A DNA stretch of 64,000 nucleotides from Allorhizobium sonneratiae (GTDB lineage Bacteria > Pseudomonadota > Alphaproteobacteria > Rhizobiales > Rhizobiaceae): NCBI RefSeq assembly GCF_023700755.1, contig NZ_JAMKOJ010000004.1, positions 186,001-250,000 of the forward strand, read 5' to 3'. This document shows, in pieces, positions 35,068 through 64,000 of the stretch. The notes beneath the pieces were generated by a model that had not been told where the DNA came from, did not search any database, and was given only the letters and a program-made list of their open reading frames with translations. Made by a program: the position numbers and the translations under genes. Within the stretch, counting starts at the first letter, position 1, and each line of letters begins with the position of its first letter.

Positions 35068-35082
35068 CTTCAATTGATGAAG
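35068..35082. promoter_or_regulatory. Candidate enhancer site for the sigma-54 activator
   Basis: CTTCAATTGATGAAG is an imperfect palindrome centred about 175 bp upstream of the predicted sigma-54 transcript start, a usual distance for XylR/DmpR-type activator sites. It overlaps the activator's own start codon, which would also allow autoregulation. Only one clear half-symmetric site was seen. Confidence 0.3.
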
Positions 35083-36888
35083 GCGCAAGTGATGAAGAAT
35101 CAACTGCCGGGACTGATCTCACTGGCGGATGCCTCAAAGAAGACCGGCAAGATGGTCTCACGCGGAACCTTTGATGAACTGGAAACCGGCGCCTCACCTA
35201 CACTCGTCGAATTGACCGAGGCTCTTCACTTTGCCTTGGGCGATGGCCGCATCTGGCTCAATGACCAGCGCATGGTGCTGATGCAGGCGCAGGTCCTCGG
35301 CCGTTTACGCCAGGAGGTGATCGACGCGTTCGGCGTTGAAGCGGCCAAGGGCATGTTCATGCGTGTCGGCTACATGCAAGGCGTTCGCGATGCGGAACTG
35401 GTTTTGAAGCGCTTTCCAAACCAGAGCCTGACGGAGGCACTTGCGGCAGGCCCGCGCGTGCACACGCTTGAAGGCTTCGTGAAGGTCACGACGCGACATT
35501 TCCGCTTCGACGGCATCAAAGGCACCTATTTTGGTGAATTCCTATGGGAAGACTCCTCTGAGGCCGCCCAACACATGGCCCATTATGGATTGGCGCAAGA
35601 ACCGGTCTGCTGGATGCAGACTGGCTATCCGACGGGATACACAAGCACGCTGTTCAAGCGACCGGTGATCTTCCGCGAGATCGAATGCGCTGCCATGGGC
35701 GCACCGCGCTGCGTTGTCGTCGGCCAGAACGCAGAAGAGTGGGGCGCTGACGCGCCCGAGCGCGCCTATCTGGGCCTCGAATGGAAGCGTACACCCCGCA
35801 AGACCAGCAAAACTGAGAAAGCGACCGAAAAGCCCGCGAAGGATCAAGACGAGGCCGAGGCGGCCCTGGCACCGGCGCCGGATCAGATCGTCGGCGTTTC
35901 GGCCAGCTTTTTGCGCGCTCGCGCCATGGTCGAGAAGGTCGCGGACACCGAGGCGACCGTCCTGCTGACGGGAGAATCCGGCGTCGGCAAGGAACTGTTC
36001 GCACAACAACTGCATCGTCTCAGTGCACGCGCGACCGGCCCCTTTGTGGCGATCAATTGCGCGGCCATTCCGGAAAATCTGGTGGAATCCGAATTGTTCG
36101 GGGTTGAAAAAGGCGCCTTCACCGGTGCGGTCGCCTCTCGGGCCGGCTATTTCGAACGGGCGGCAAAAGGTACAATCTTCCTCGATGAGATCGCCTCGCT
36201 GGCGTATGCGGCACAAGGCAAGGTTCTTCGCGCCATCCAGGAACGCCAGATCGAGCGCATAGGCGGCGTCCGTACGGTGCAGACGGATGTGCGCGTGATC
36301 GCCGCCTCCAATGTAGATCTGGCCGAGGAGGTGCGGGCCGGTCGATTCCGCCAGGACCTTTACTTCCGCCTCTGCGTCTTTCCCATAGCAATCCCGCCGC
36401 TGCGCGAGCGCCGCGATGACATTCCTTTTCTCGTCTCACACTTTCTCAGCCAGTTCAGTATCCGTCATCGCCGCAGCTGCCGCGGCCTGACGCATCGGGC
36501 AATGGATGCCCTGCTGGCCTATGACTTTCCCGGCAATATCCGCGAGCTGCAGAACCTCATCGAACGCGGCGTCATCTTTGCCGATCCCGGCGGCTGGATC
36601 GACGTTCAGCACCTGTTCACCGGCCAAGACATCTCGCCCGTGTTTCCGCAGCAACTGACTGCGGAAGGCAAGGTGAGACTGAGCACGCATCCCCATGCAC
36701 CGCCTTCCCCTTCCGCCGGCGCCAGAATGCATTCCGCAGAGGATCTGGCAATGGCGGAAAAGGCACTCTATCGCGAGGCTCTTGACCAAGCCGCCGGCAA
36801 CATCTCACTTGCAGCGCGTCGTCTGGGGCTCAGCCGTCCCAAACTCGACTATCGTCTGAAGAAACTCGGGCTCATCAAAGCACCTTGA
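35077..36888 (+). CDS. Sigma-54-dependent activator with XylR_N and V4R sensor domains
   Basis: 603-aa NtrC-family activator of the XylR/DmpR type, which bind aromatic effectors directly. N-terminal XylR_N (about 30-125) and V4R (about 145-215, [15 protein letters not shown]) precede an AAA+ domain with Walker A GESGVGKE (about 298) and the sigma-54-contact loop GAFTGA (about 347). Walker B-like IFLDEIASL and a C-terminal Fis-type HTH ([24 protein letters not shown]) are present. It faces the dehydrogenase pair across 300 bp that hold the sigma-54 promoter. TTG 35074, ATG 35077 and ATG 35092 are possible starts. Confidence 0.9.
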
Positions 36889-59227: not shown

Positions 59228-59762
59228 CACGGATCATTCATGGGCGGTGACATCACCATCGGTGGACGAAACACTGGCTTTGGCGCGCCGTTGATCAGGA
59301 TGGCTTTGTTCTCGACGTGCTGGCGCAAAGCCGCTGCAATACCAAGGCGGCAAAACGTTTGATGCGCAAGCTGTTGAAAGCCCAGGGCCGCACGCCGCGT
59401 GTGATGATCACCGACAAACTGCGATCCTGTGGTGCAGCAAAGCGGGAGGTCATGCCCGGCGTTGAGCATCGTTCCCACAAGGGAGTGAACAATCGGGCGG
59501 AGAGCTCCCATCAGCCCGTCCGACGACGGGAGAGGATCATGACGCGCTTCACGTCAACACGACATCTTCAGCATTTCGTTTCCATTCATGCCCCAGTCGC
59601 CAACCTTTTTCACATTCCCCGCCACGATATTCCAACCAATCACCATCGCGAACTGCAAACAGCAGCCATGCCAGCATGGCACCAAATCGCACGCCTTCAC
59701 GCAGCATGAACTCATTACTCATGCCCAGATGTTGCGCTCAAGCCGGTAAGTTTACAGTGCCA
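59228..59762 (+). mobile_element. IS6-family insertion sequence remnant with frameshifted transposase
   Basis: Only the C-terminal half of a DDE transposase remains. From 59275 the frame reads WLWRAVDQDGFVLDVLAQSRCNTKAAKRLMRKLLKAQG, ITDKLRSCGAAKREVMPGVEHRSHKGVNNRAESSHQP and VSIHAPVANLFHIPRHDI, ending at 59709. Upstream the sequence ATCACCATCGGTGGACGAAA belongs to another frame, so one base is missing near 59270, and the 5' half is absent. GTTTACAGTGCC at 59750-59761 resembles the IS6 right terminal repeat. No intact left end was found, so it cannot move by itself. Confidence 0.8.
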
Positions 59763-59772
59763 TATGATCACT

Positions 59773-60471
59773 TCAGACCCTTCCCGTACCAAACACCCCA
59801 AGCATATCGAACGCAACGGGACGCCGTCGATCAAATGCCAAACCATCTTGAATTTCGATAATGTGCTCGCGCATCAACGAAACCGCTTTCTCGACATCGC
59901 CGGAAGCACAATGCTGGACAAGATCGTCGTGGTGGTCATGCCATCCGGCCAAACCGACCTGATTGTCGAAGAGATGCACGATAAGGCTTGTGCGGGCTAC
60001 CAGCAGCCGAACCTGATCGGCTAGAATGCGGTTTCCTGACAGTTCGGCCATGAGTACGTGGAACCCGCCTGAAAGGTGGATCGCCTCACGTATATAGCCC
60101 TGCTGTCTCAGCTTGTGCTCTTGCTCGATATTTTCACGAAGCCTGGCGATCGCTGCCGGGTCAGCAGCACGTGCCACGGCTTCGGTAGTTCCGGCCTCAA
60201 TCGCTACACGGGCGGCAAATACCTCAACTGCCTCGGCTGCATCCGGCGCCGCTACGAATGCCCCGCGGTTGGGAAAGAATACGACGAGCTTCTCCCAGGT
60301 CAGCCGCTGTAGCGCAGTCCCGATCGTCCGCCTGCCAGCTCCGAACGCCTCCATCAGCGCGAGTTCGGTCAGCTTGGTCCCAGGCGGAAGCCGTTGATCG
60401 ACGATTGCAGCAAAGAGGTGCGCGTAGGCTTCGTCCGCATCATCGACTTTGGGCCGATTGCGGTCATTCAT
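59773..60471 (-). CDS. GntR-family (FCD) regulator of the hydantoin operon
   Basis: 232-aa regulator. The winged HTH reads AYAHLFAAIVDQRLPPGTKLTELALMEAFGAGRRTIGTALQRLTWEKLVVFFPNRGAFV, followed by an FCD ligand domain (HLSGGFHVLMAELSGNRILADQVRLLVARTSLIVHLF). ATG 60471 (MNDRNRPKV) is preferred to 60501. Divergent from the SBP/hydantoinase genes. The inverted repeat at 60538-60557 is a candidate operator. Regulators of this subgroup often control hydantoin, pyrimidine or purine breakdown. Confidence 0.87.
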   Translation of the reverse strand: MNDRNRPKVDDADEAYAHLFAAIVDQRLPPGTKLTELALMEAFGAGRRTIGTALQRLTWEKLVVFFPNRGAFVAAPDAAEAVEVFAARVAIEAGTTEAVARAADPAAIARLRENIEQEHKLRQQGYIREAIHLSGGFHVLMAELSGNRILADQVRLLVARTSLIVHLFDNQVGLAGWHDHHDDLVQHCASGDVEKAVSLMREHIIEIQDGLAFDRRRPVAFDMLGVFGTGRV

Positions 60472-60537
60472 CACGCCTACCAAACGCTTGTTCTGCTTCA
60501 CTGATGTTCTCTTTGACGATCTTTTTCGCGGAGGATT

Positions 60538-60557
60538 GTGCGCAATTTATAGCGCAC
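60538..60557. promoter_or_regulatory. Inverted repeat, candidate GntR or NtrC site
   Basis: GTGCGC (60538-60543) and GCGCAC (60552-60557) flank an 8-bp AT-rich spacer. It lies 66 bp from the GntR start and about 60 bp upstream of the predicted sigma-54 transcript start, a position suited to a repressor or an enhancer-binding dimer. Confidence 0.45.
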
Positions 60558-60582
60558 CATTGTTTTTATTCAAGTTCGCGAG

Positions 60583-60599
60583 TTGGCACGTGCCTTGCT
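60583..60599 (+). promoter_or_regulatory. Sigma-54 promoter of the hydantoinase operon
   Basis: TTGGCACGTGCCTTGCT is an exact TGGCAC-N5-TTGCT match to the -24/-12 consensus (GG 60585-60586, GC 60597-60598). Transcription would start near 60609-60610, leaving about 28 nt before the ATG at 60638. Sigma-54 control suggests nitrogen-limitation response through NtrC. Confidence 0.85.
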
Positions 60600-60637
60600 A
60601 CTTCCTCTACAGGCATGATCAAAACAGGGGAATGGAT

Positions 60638-61672
60638 ATGAACAAATTTACCTCTTCGCGTCGCACCATCCTTCAACTGGGCCTCGCGGCACCTTTTATC
60701 CTTAAAGCAGGCCGTAGCCTTGCAGCGACAGCGGTGAAATTCTCATTCTCCGCACCTTTCGACGGCTCGAACGCCCCATTCCTTCTGGCTGAGAAAAATG
60801 GCTGGTACAAAGAAGCCGGGCTGGAATGTCAGTTTGATGCCGGCGGCGGGTCTGGTGAAGCTGCTGCTCGCACGGGATCAGGTGTTTACGATGGCGGAAC
60901 GGTCGACATCAACAACGTCGCCGAATTCAATTCTAAGAATCCGACAGCCGAAATCCGCGCGGTCTTCATGCTCTATTTCAAGAGCCCTCTTTGCGTAGCG
61001 ACGCTATCAAAATCGGGCATCACCAAACCGTCCGACCTCGCTGGAAAGACGGTTGGTGCGGCTGCGCCAGATGGCGCCTACCGGCTTTTTTCGACCTATG
61101 CAAAGGCCACGTCGATCGATCCATCGACCATCAAGTGGAACATGGTGGGCCTCCAGTTGCGTGAGGCGGTGCTTTCTGGTGGCAGCGCGGATGCCATTCT
61201 CGGATTTGATTCAACCATGTATTTTGGGCTGGTCAAAGCGGGCATCGCACCCGCCGACATCAAGTTTCTCTACTACGCCGATGCAGGTCTTGACTTATAC
61301 GGTAACGCAATTGTCCTTTCGAAGAAGTTTCGCACCACCAATCCCGAAGCTGCAAAGGCATTCGTTGCCGCCAGCGCACGTGGTTACCAGGCGGCTGCGG
61401 CAGATCCGAAGGCCGCCATCGCCGCGCTCAAGGATCACTCTCCTCTGATCAATGCGGCTTTAGAGGAAGAAAAGCTGCGTTGGCTGGTGAAGAACCAGTT
61501 CACGACCGAGGAAACTAAGAAGAATGGTCTCGGTGGCATTGACGCCTCGCGCCTGTCCAAGTCGATGATCGCGGTCGCCGAAGGTTTCGGACTGCCCTCT
61601 GTGCCCAGGGCGGAGGACCTGTTCGATGCCTCGTTCCTGCCCTCCGCCGACATCCGGAAGCTGCCGGCATGA
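60638..61672 (+). CDS. ABC transporter substrate-binding protein, NMT1/TauA-like, Tat-type signal
   Basis: 344-aa periplasmic binding protein. SSRRTILQLGLAAPFILKAG gives a twin-arginine-like signal. The mature part starts VKFSFSAPFDGSNAPFLLAEKNGWYKEAGLECQFDAGGGSGEAAART, typical of the NMT1/TauA group. ATG 60638 has CAGGGGA upstream (60632 also possible); the frame extending to 60449 is not coding. The hydantoinase gene overlaps its stop (ATGA). No permease or ATPase follows inside the window; they may lie beyond its end. Confidence 0.87.
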   Translation: MNKFTSSRRTILQLGLAAPFILKAGRSLAATAVKFSFSAPFDGSNAPFLLAEKNGWYKEAGLECQFDAGGGSGEAAARTGSGVYDGGTVDINNVAEFNSKNPTAEIRAVFMLYFKSPLCVATLSKSGITKPSDLAGKTVGAAAPDGAYRLFSTYAKATSIDPSTIKWNMVGLQLREAVLSGGSADAILGFDSTMYFGLVKAGIAPADIKFLYYADAGLDLYGNAIVLSKKFRTTNPEAAKAFVAASARGYQAAAADPKAAIAALKDHSPLINAALEEEKLRWLVKNQFTTEETKKNGLGGIDASRLSKSMIAVAEGFGLPSVPRAEDLFDASFLPSADIRKLPA

Positions 61673-63108
61673 GTTTTGACTTGGTGATCCGCGGCGGGAC
61701 GATCGTGACCGCGTCCGACGTGACGAAAGCCGATCTCGGTATTCGGGGCGGCCGCATAGCGACCATTGCAGATCATATCTCCGGCGGTGATACCGTCATC
61801 GATGCCGGAGGGCTGCTGGTCATGCCCGGCGGCATCGATGCCCATTGCCATCTCGACCAGCCTCAGGCGCCAGGACTTGCATCCAAGGGCGCTACGATGG
61901 CAGACGGGTTCCGATCAGGAAGCATCAGTGCAGCCTTTGGCGGCACGACAACCATCGTACCCTTTTGCGTACAGCACCGGGGCGAGTCCCTGACGGCAGC
62001 TGTCGCGGACTATCACAAGCGCGCCGCGGGTCAGTCGGTTATCGACTATGCGTTTCATCTGATCGTCAGCGATCCCTCACCCGCCGTTCTTGGCCAGGAG
62101 ATGCCAGCGCTCATTCGCCGCGGCCATACCAGCATCAAGGTCTACATGACCTATGACGCGATGGTCCTCAGCGATCGTCAGATCCTCGACGTCTTCGAGG
62201 TTGCGCGCCGGGAAAAAGCCGTGATGCTGATCCACGCGGAAAACCACGAGATCATCGGCTGGCTGGCCGAGCAGCTGGAACAGGATGGCCGCACGAGGCC
62301 GCTCGGCCATGCTCAATCCAGGCCGCTACCCGTAGAGCGTGAAGCGACACATCGGGCGATGACACTTGCCGAAATTGCCGGCGTGCCGCTGGTCATCGTG
62401 CATGTCTCAGGCGGCGATCCGCTGGACGAGATCCGCCGCGCACGCGCGCGCGGCTACGTCGTGATTGCCGAGACATGCCCACAATATCTGCTCTTGACCG
62501 AAGCTGACCTCGACATGCCTGACATGCTGGGTGCCAAGGCGATGTGCAGCCCTCCACCCAGGGACACCCAGGCGCAAGCTGCACTGTGGCGCGGGATCGA
62601 GGACGGCACGATCGATATCTTTAATTCCGATCACGCCCCCTACCGTTTCGATTCTGACGGAAAGCTGAAAGCCGGCCCCGCCCCGTCGTTTCGCGCCGTG
62701 GCAAACGGCATACCGGGCCTCGAGACCCGACTGCCCATTCTGTTCAGCGAGGGCGTCGTCAAAGGCAGGATCGACCTCCAGCGCTTTGTGGCGCTTACAT
62801 CGACGAATAACGCCAAGCTCTACGGACTTCACCCTCGCAAGGGCACGATTGCGGTCGGCGCGGATGCCGACGTTGCGCTCTGGGACCCGGAGCGGCGTGT
62901 GACCATCACAAACTGCCTGCTGCATCACAACGTCGACTACACTCCGTTCGAGGGTCTTGAGGTGCAGGGCTGGCCCGAAACTGTGATCAGCCGTGGCGAG
63001 ATCATCGTCCACAAGAACGAACTGAAGGGCGCGCCGGGCCGAGGCCACTTCCTCAATCAGGAGACGTCATCCGCCTGGAAGACGAGGGAGATCAAGTCAT
63101 GGATCTGA
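61669..63108 (+). CDS. Dihydropyrimidinase/hydantoinase
   Basis: 479-aa cyclic amidohydrolase that opens hydantoin or dihydropyrimidine rings. Binuclear metal site markers are DAHCHLDQP (His59, His61), the carbamylated-Lys segment HTSIKVYMTYDAM, IHAENHEI and IVHVSGG for the next His ligands, and the Asp of FNSDHAPYRF. Length is standard for the D-hydantoinase family. It is coupled to the binding protein (ATGA) and overlaps the following SDR by 10 bp. Imported hydantoins or pyrimidines are the expected substrates. Confidence 0.88.
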   Translation: MSFDLVIRGGTIVTASDVTKADLGIRGGRIATIADHISGGDTVIDAGGLLVMPGGIDAHCHLDQPQAPGLASKGATMADGFRSGSISAAFGGTTTIVPFCVQHRGESLTAAVADYHKRAAGQSVIDYAFHLIVSDPSPAVLGQEMPALIRRGHTSIKVYMTYDAMVLSDRQILDVFEVARREKAVMLIHAENHEIIGWLAEQLEQDGRTRPLGHAQSRPLPVEREATHRAMTLAEIAGVPLVIVHVSGGDPLDEIRRARARGYVVIAETCPQYLLLTEADLDMPDMLGAKAMCSPPPRDTQAQAALWRGIEDGTIDIFNSDHAPYRFDSDGKLKAGPAPSFRAVANGIPGLETRLPILFSEGVVKGRIDLQRFVALTSTNNAKLYGLHPRKGTIAVGADADVALWDPERRVTITNCLLHHNVDYTPFEGLEVQGWPETVISRGEIIVHKNELKGAPGRGHFLNQETSSAWKTREIKSWI

Positions 63109-63860
63109 AAATCGCAGGTAAACGCGCGCTGATCCTGGGCGGCAATCGCGGCATGGGGCTTGCCATTGCTAAAGCGCTTGCCGCCGAGAGTGTGTCTGTC
63201 ACGATTGCCGCACGCGACGAAAAAGCGCTTGCCGACGCGGCAAAGGAGATCGGTGCGGCCGATATGGTCAGGGTTGATCTTTCCGATACCGCATCGCTTA
63301 CCGCGTTTGCGGCAGAGGTCGGAGACATCGACATCCTCTTCAACAACACCGGTGGTCCGCCGTATGGCAGCGCCATCGGGCACGACCTTAGTGACTGGGA
63401 GGAGAGCTTTCGCAGTATGTCCCTCTCGGTCATAAGGCTGACAGATCTTTTCCTTCCAGCGATGCGTGCCAAGGGCTGGGGCCGCGTAGTGACCGTCGTC
63501 AGCACCGGGGCGATACAGCCGATCCCTGTGCTTGGCATATCAAACACGCTTCGAGCCGGGCTGATCGCCTGGTCGAAATCTCTCGCAGCAGAGGTGGCGG
63601 TAGACGGAGTGACGGTGAATGTCCTGATGCCTGGACGCGTTGCGACGGAGCGCGTCGGCATAACGGACGAAGCAACGGCCGCCAGAGAGAAGATCGATGT
63701 CGAAAGTGTCAGGCAGCGATCTTTTTCCCAAATCCCTATGGGCCGGTACGCCGAACCCGAAGAGATAGCCTCGGTCGCCGCCTTCCTGTGCGGCCAGCCC
63801 GCATCCTATGTCACCGGGAGCGTCTATCGAGTTGATGGGGGATATGTTCGCCATGTGTGA
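63099..63860 (+). CDS. SDR-fold protein lacking the classical Tyr/Lys pair
   Basis: 253 aa. NAD(P) motif GGNRGMG (residues 14-20), IDILFNNTGGPP and the C-terminal PEEIASVAAFLCGQPASYVTGSVYRVDGG identify a short-chain dehydrogenase. At the active site the Ser is present (VVSTGAIQP) but the YxxxK positions read SNTLR, with Ser for Tyr and Arg for Lys. This occurs in a recognised SDR subgroup, so catalysis must differ from the textbook mechanism. Its start overlaps the hydantoinase stop, and it overlaps the next gene. Confidence 0.85.
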   Translation: MDLKIAGKRALILGGNRGMGLAIAKALAAESVSVTIAARDEKALADAAKEIGAADMVRVDLSDTASLTAFAAEVGDIDILFNNTGGPPYGSAIGHDLSDWEESFRSMSLSVIRLTDLFLPAMRAKGWGRVVTVVSTGAIQPIPVLGISNTLRAGLIAWSKSLAAEVAVDGVTVNVLMPGRVATERVGITDEATAAREKIDVESVRQRSFSQIPMGRYAEPEEIASVAAFLCGQPASYVTGSVYRVDGGYVRHV

Positions 63861-64000
63861 AACCGACGTCGAAAGTACGGCCGTTGCGGTAAGGCTGGCC
63901 GCGCGCGCCGGGTTTTCAGCAACCACCGTCGGGCAGGCGCCAGGCTACGCTCAGGCTCATATTTACATCGTGCCGGAAACCCATGCGGAAGATTTCGCGA
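63844..64000 (+). CDS. DUF1445 (D-glutamate cyclase/hydro-lyase-like) protein, partial
   Basis: First ~52 codons of a gene running off the window. ESTAVAVRLAARAGFSATTVGQAPGYAQAHIYIVPETHAEDFA matches the start of DUF1445 proteins, where GxTaGxAPGYxQaNLxilP is conserved. ATG 63844 and ATG 63853 are both in frame; the GGGGG before them is better spaced for 63853. Overlaps the SDR gene by 17 bp. Its presence after the hydantoinase fits amide or lactam breakdown. Confidence 0.7.
   Translation, partial: MFAMCETDVESTAVAVRLAARAGFSATTVGQAPGYAQAHIYIVPETHAEDFA

Follow-up and report, generated by a model that had tools for sequence, protein, structure and literature searches.

How might a catabolic operon be placed under the control of both the nitrogen status of the cell and the availability of its own substrate? 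The question is raised by an intergenic region of Allorhizobium sonneratiae, contained in the 64,000-nucleotide stretch of DNA analysed here (the window), from which a GntR regulator gene and an operon for hydantoin- or pyrimidine-type ring opening diverge. The original prediction had held it plausible that the operon is jointly controlled by sigma-54/NtrC and by the GntR protein, with a GTGCGC/GCGCAC repeat between the two genes. Based on the comparison of the window with related loci, we consider it rather likely that the locus is a catabolic module with a two-input promoter, driven by sigma-54 together with a host activator (likely NtrC) and repressed by GntR from a palindrome conserved upstream of the promoter.

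Related loci

The loci used for comparison were collected in a single scan by binding-protein sequence alone, blind to promoters, which rendered 27 loci (52-94% identity) spanning Rhizobiaceae (Rhizobium), Chelatococcus, Rhodoplanes, Bradyrhizobium, Acetobacteraceae (Roseomonas), Comamonadaceae (Polaromonas), Pandoraea and others. These loci are mutually related and do not represent 27 independent events, with protein identities that reach down to 52%. Ten of them derive from MAGs, among them the sole one with a gammaproteobacterial name (Moraxellaceae, L022), and the taxon labels of these ten are less sure. With the addition of the window itself, a congener (L008) and three plasmid copies, fetched out of seven listed plasmid records with a close GntR, the full set comprised 32 sequences.

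Gene content and probable mobility of the locus

The following genes were recognized around the divergent intergenic region:

59773-60501, minus strand: FCD-type GntR regulator gene with a GTG start (PF00392, 51 bits; PF07729, 71 bits)
60638-61672, plus strand: NMT1/ThiY-like ABC substrate-binding protein gene (PF09084, 107 bits)
61669-63108, plus strand: dihydropyrimidinase/D-hydantoinase gene (NF009941, 728 bits for a cut-off of 647; TIGR02033 over cut-off)
63099-63860, plus strand: SDR-family oxidoreductase gene (PF13561; match in 27 of 27 loci)
63808-64000, plus strand: start of a D-glutamate-cyclase-like (DUF1445) gene, cut by the window end (tblastn match in 20 of 27 loci)

The assignment of the operon to hydantoin or pyrimidine metabolism is borne out by the NF009941 and TIGR02033 matches of 61669-63108. 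The divergent gene is indeed that of an FCD-GntR, its winged helix and its FCD ligand domain both scoring over cut-off (PF00392 and PF07729). GntR, binding protein, hydantoinase and SDR were each matched in all 27 loci, and in every one of them the GntR ortholog (44-95% identity) is divergent from the operon. Among solved structures the binding protein is matched only weakly, by 4nmy (44 bits) and by 3ix1, which binds formylaminopyrimidine (35 bits). Past the window end the operon extends to genes for the D-glutamate-cyclase-like protein, a GlcG/HbpS-like protein (annotated as GlcG or heme-binding protein on related plasmids), an ABC ATPase and a permease. None of the annotated genes next to the three plasmid copies bears the name of a carbamoylase; at L080, a cysteine hydrolase gene is situated past the 3' end of gntR. 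The matches to gntR, binding protein, hydantoinase and DUF1445 genes are fragmented in L019 (Brucella oryzae NBRC 102588, tig00000016) and the NtrC of the same genome is likewise split, probably as a result of assembly errors.

Directly 3' of gntR, an IS6-family transposase remnant was detected at 59317-59709 (NF033587, 68 bits for a cut-off of 125), with 86-91% identical copies on Agrobacterium vitis plasmids among the matches listed (10 of 66 records). It likely marks the edge of an acquired block. Among 35 other genomes of the same genus searched, the promoter region was matched in a single one (L008), and this rarity, taken together with the transposase remnant, suggests that the operon block was horizontally acquired. 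The catabolic module is probably mobile.

A conserved sigma-54 promoter element

The original prediction placed a sigma-54 promoter upstream of the binding-protein gene, and the element is real:

60583-60599, plus strand: sigma-54 -24/-12 element TTGGCACGTGCCTTGCT, an exact match, with the transcript start expected near 60610; the element recurs in 27 of 27 loci

It has GG at -24 and GC at -12 at the correct spacing. TTGGCACGTGCCTTGCT is the sole exact TGGCACGN4TTGCW within the window; the same pattern has five exact matches in the whole genome (4.55 Mb) and none in the backwards control. When up to two mismatches were allowed, 11 matches were obtained in the window for 14.6 expected, so loose -24/-12 matches are uninformative and the case for the promoter rests on conservation. 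In this respect the evidence is consistent: GGCAYN6TGC was found on the right strand within 300 bp upstream of the binding-protein match in all 27 loci, for an expectation of 0.017 per 300 bp, and the stricter TGGCAYN5TTGC in 26 of 27 (0.001 expected per 300 bp), the exception being L016, whose element starts CGGCAC. Both expected rates were computed from the remaining sequence of these loci. The element is also present upstream in the congener L008 and in the three plasmid copies, and the genome encodes one copy of rpoN (PF04552, 240.7 bits). Judged by its conservation, the element at 60583-60599 is almost certainly functional.

An exact TGGCACGCCCTTTGCT was also observed elsewhere in the genome, at C38:201395-204326 (L004, L043), near a sigma-54 activator gene; we take this locus to be possibly dctA/dctBD.

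A palindrome between gntR and the promoter

gntR and the binding-protein gene are separated by 136 bp, in which we examined three features in addition to the promoter element:

60535-60546, no strand assigned: palindrome ATTGTGCGCAAT, the predicted operator of GntR; all 32 sequences carry its consensus ATTGYGCRCAAT exactly
60538-60557, plus strand: GTGCGC...GCGCAC inverted repeat (6-bp stem, 8-nt loop), whose right arm GCGCAC is present in only 3 of 32 sequences (the window, L079 and L080)
60546-60573, minus strand: possible sigma-70 promoter of gntR, TTGAAT-N16-TATAAA, seen by eye, with a start near 60539 inside the operator

The inverted repeat does exist at 60538-60557, as originally described, and its left arm is in common with the palindrome. 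As an operator it was rejected because its right arm is confined to three sequences and because it was picked up as a terminator-like hairpin as well; the conserved site is 60535-60546. A palindromic candidate operator is thus found in the divergent intergenic region of every sequence: the 12-bp ATTGYGCRCAAT is exact in the window, the 27 loci, L008 and the three plasmids, and its core TTGYGCRCAA lies between gntR and the promoter in all 27 loci, for 0.006 expected per 300 bp. The palindrome occurs at only two sites in the genome, the second of them within a coding frame, presumably selO-like. The letters of the operator had no match in title-relevant open-licence papers, among the matches listed.

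To which protein does the palindrome belong? We surveyed 15 distant, plasmid-borne GntR homologs (34-42% identity), hand-picked among the matches listed (60 of 128 records), over the 300 bp upstream of each match. An ATTGTN2ACAAT palindrome was exact at six of them (L094, L097, L101, L103, L106 and L107), the sites of L097 and L103 being identical, and near matches were found at three more (L093, L095 and L098; p <=0.04 relative to their own locus); the remaining six (L096, L099, L100, L102, L104 and L105) showed no outstanding palindrome (p 0.06-0.36). A -24/-12-like match, searched with the looser TGGYN7YTGC on both strands, was present at one of the 15 (L106) and was weak. The survey indicates that the palindrome accompanies the GntR family, and the coupling to sigma-54 looks peculiar to its hydantoinase branch. 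Since six homologous GntR loci carry the exact palindrome and only one of the 15 a weak sigma-54-like match, we assign the site to GntR, and 60535-60546 is probably the GntR operator.

The recognition-helix stretch of GntR, GRRTIGTALQRL, is encoded at 60301-60336 of the window (residues 56-67). This branch of the family has GRR or SRR there and the distant homologs mostly SRT or SRA followed, a few residues later, by another R, a change that parallels that of the operator core (GC-type instead of ATTGTN2ACAAT). One distant homolog (L102, 38% identity, on a Diaphorobacter plasmid) adjoins another hydA and an Asp/Glu-racemase-family gene; no sigma-54-like match was found in the 300 bp upstream.

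Spacing of operator and promoter

Measured from the T that opens TTGYGCRCAA up to the TGG of the promoter element, the distance is 46-48 bp in 22 of the 32 sequences, 57-60 bp in nine and 70 bp in one, and close relatives differ by a discrete step, L025/L035 and L028 being distinguished by 11 bp inserted between the two elements, each of which is intact. When 11 lineages were taken as independent, the distances were phased at 10.5 bp (R = 0.80, p = 0.0006). Lineages and events were delimited manually; with three to five conservative events p rose to between 0.03 and 0.18, and for the distinct distances periods of 11 to 12 fit better than 10.5. Helical phasing was for these reasons rejected as strong evidence, and a spacing of whole helical turns is suggestive only. 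Broad pattern scans matched one of 385 class genomes, namely the own genome, and, within the G454 family, two of 249 genomes, G454 itself and one whose hit is identical in sequence to L020; neither scan yielded a new operator-promoter spacing.

In none of the 32 sequences does the palindrome overlap the -24/-12 core; it ends 35-59 bp before the element, with its centre near -69, -79 or -91 (in the window, some 69 bp upstream of the expected start). Sigma-54 polymerase is expected downstream of such centres, and direct occlusion of the core promoter by GntR, in the manner of HutC, is therefore less likely, as far as the extent of the palindrome goes.

These distances bear on an explanation that we regard as unlikely, namely that the FCD-GntR controls its own gene only, nitrogen status, via NtrC, being the sole input to the sigma-54 promoter. 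GntR autoregulation is common, the operator overlaps the putative gntR start seen by eye and, as noted, in none of the 32 sequences reaches into the -24/-12 element. A start within the palindrome would be a possible geometry for autorepression; the consensus promoter scanner, for which the -10 hexamer has to end in T, reported no sigma-70 site here. However, the distances are confined to 46-48, 57-60 and 70 bp, with the 11-bp step between L025/L035 and L028, and a purely autoregulatory site would not need a kept phase, even if the phasing itself is only suggestive.

The activator of the sigma-54 promoter

A search by tblastn with the six sigma-54 activators of the genome as queries revealed no sigma-54 activator gene in the 27 neighbourhoods (up to 5 kb per side, less at contig ends) or in the three plasmid stretches; the positive control, the MobR-like gene, was found. 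The sole neighbourhood match, at L032, is partial (about 100-120 residues, 28-32% identity) and probably represents a receiver domain. As no activator gene was found linked to the module, the activator must be supplied in trans by the host.

NtrC is a plausible activator and our best guess. The genome encodes an NtrC with an intact GAFTGA (TIGR01818, 700 bits), and NtrC was found in all 20 hosts checked (which carry 20 of the 27 loci, with seven loci outside this count), in 19 of them over cut-off and in G453, the host of L019, in two pieces. The NtrX of the genome is devoid of GAFTGA. Binding sites for NtrC were sought with two motifs. The first was the dyad TGCACCAN3TGGTGCA, obtained by widening the Pseudomonas consensus given in the available part of PMC12977541. 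It is not conserved: its best match in the window reaches 11 of 14 positions compared with 8-10 in the other 27 sequences, and falls inside gntR (p 0.01 relative to shuffles, uncorrected for 28 sequences). The rhizobial motif TGC-N11-GCA, as given in the part of PMC10746234 at hand, occurs in six of 28 sequences, for about three expected, and is absent from the window; the letters of an NtrC site were not found in the accessible part of PMC10274813. Neither motif was found upstream of glnK of the same genome either, where a near-consensus sigma-54 element, TGGCACGCCGTTTGAA, is visible, so the lack of a conserved NtrC site carries no weight.

A host activator other than NtrC, of the carbon or aromatic type, could drive the promoter instead, which we consider improbable. 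Four more GAFTGA-bearing activators are encoded in the genome, one of them within the window:

35077-36882: complete MobR-like sigma-54 activator gene (NF041906, 485 bits, below the cut-off of 999), about 24 kb from the operon

The absence of an NtrC site would point the same way, with scans that are equally blank at glnK. On the other hand, the module is found, with no activator linked to it, in alpha- and betaproteobacterial hosts and in one MAG under the name Moraxellaceae, and NtrC, the activator compared host by host, is present in all 20 hosts checked of the 27. That the palindrome itself serves a sigma-54 activator as its enhancer site, as might be proposed from its being the sole conserved upstream element found and from its turn-like spacing, is very improbable, because the same palindrome type is exact beside six of 15 homologous GntR genes without a convincing sigma-54 element and because near-uniqueness in the genome argues against the site of a global activator.

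Proposed mechanism and significance

We return to the two-input promoter as the preferred reading. Sigma-54 RNA polymerase would bind 60583-60599 and wait for a host AAA+ activator acting in trans, most likely phosphorylated NtrC, so that the operon would fire only at nitrogen shortage. An FCD-GntR dimer would bind ATTGTGCGCAAT and repress its own gene, the predicted gntR start being inside the operator. From the promoter's helix side it would also hinder the contact between activator and polymerase, which makes repression, rather than activation, its presumed role. A ring substrate or product would release GntR, and the derepressed operon would import and hydrolyse the cyclic amide. Counted against this proposal are the 136-bp gap, which leaves little room for a separate enhancer, and the six distant GntR loci lacking an outstanding palindrome. 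With regard to the joint control originally predicted, the sigma-54 promoter, rpoN, the dedicated FCD-GntR and a palindrome speak in its favour, with the operator moved to 60535-60546.

A more specific version, which we put forward tentatively, is that FCD-GntR gates the sigma-54 promoter from a non-overlapping, helix-phased operator, either as a ligand-controlled anti-activator or as a DNA-bending co-activator of the activator-polymerase contact, in a cassette that crosses classes of Proteobacteria and borrows the activator of each host.

The locus represents a widely spread catabolic module in which every copy examined has retained both a sigma-54 promoter and a predicted regulator site. It offers a testable case in which one promoter may integrate a global sigma-54 activator with a local GntR sensor through sites that do not overlap, and it leads to the prediction of nitrogen-controlled, hydantoin-type ring opening in many soil bacteria.

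Comparison with known systems

Among the papers listed from the open-licence literature we found none that joins an FCD-GntR with sigma-54, none on hydantoinase and nitrogen catabolite repression in Agrobacterium, and nothing on point by title for GntR with RpoN/sigma54, hydantoin included; the word hydantoin is absent from the main text of PMC4842269 and PMC13207237.

The hydantoinase is a full-length member of the D-hydantoinase/dihydropyrimidinase family, with the D-hydantoinase 1nfg as its best PDB match (392 bits). Unlike 1nfg and its relatives, it belongs to an operon that also encodes an SDR and, at 20 of the 27 loci, a DUF1445 protein. A parallel in regulation is Paraburkholderia phymatum, in which an RpoN box was predicted before the hydantoinase operon Bphy_6150-52, in a paper (PMC5979394) that, in the part available, cites another study for a hydantoin gene as direct RpoN target. 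In both cases hydantoinase genes follow a predicted RpoN box. The likeness is one by description, the P. phymatum plasmid, whose record is unannotated, being absent among the matches listed for the hydantoinase (60 of 205 records), and GntR does not occur in the main text of that paper.

The nearest precedent for dual control comes from histidine catabolism: at hutU of P. aeruginosa PAO1, HutC, a repressor of the GntR/HutC family, has a footprint that overlaps the sigma-54 site, and NtrC and CbrB are the hutU activators in pseudomonads, according to the accessible parts of PMC12977541 and PMC8871633. On this precedent, as far as those parts of the sources go, joint control of ring catabolism by GntR and sigma-54/NtrC is of a known kind: both systems combine a catabolic operon for a nitrogenous ring, a sigma-54 promoter, a local GntR-family regulator and a nitrogen activator, which here is a candidate. 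They differ in that HutC is of the GntR/HutC kind with the operator TGTA-N2-TACA, whereas the regulator described here is of the FCD type with the predicted operator ATTGYGCRCAAT, and in that the HutC footprint overlaps the sigma-54 site, whereas here the palindrome, by its own extent, leaves the -24/-12 element free in each of the 32 sequences. The locus is thus not a second case of HutC/hutU-type control, with an FCD regulator and a palindrome off the sigma-54 site; its predicted variant features are the FCD subfamily, the promoter-clear operator and the turn-like spacing between the two.
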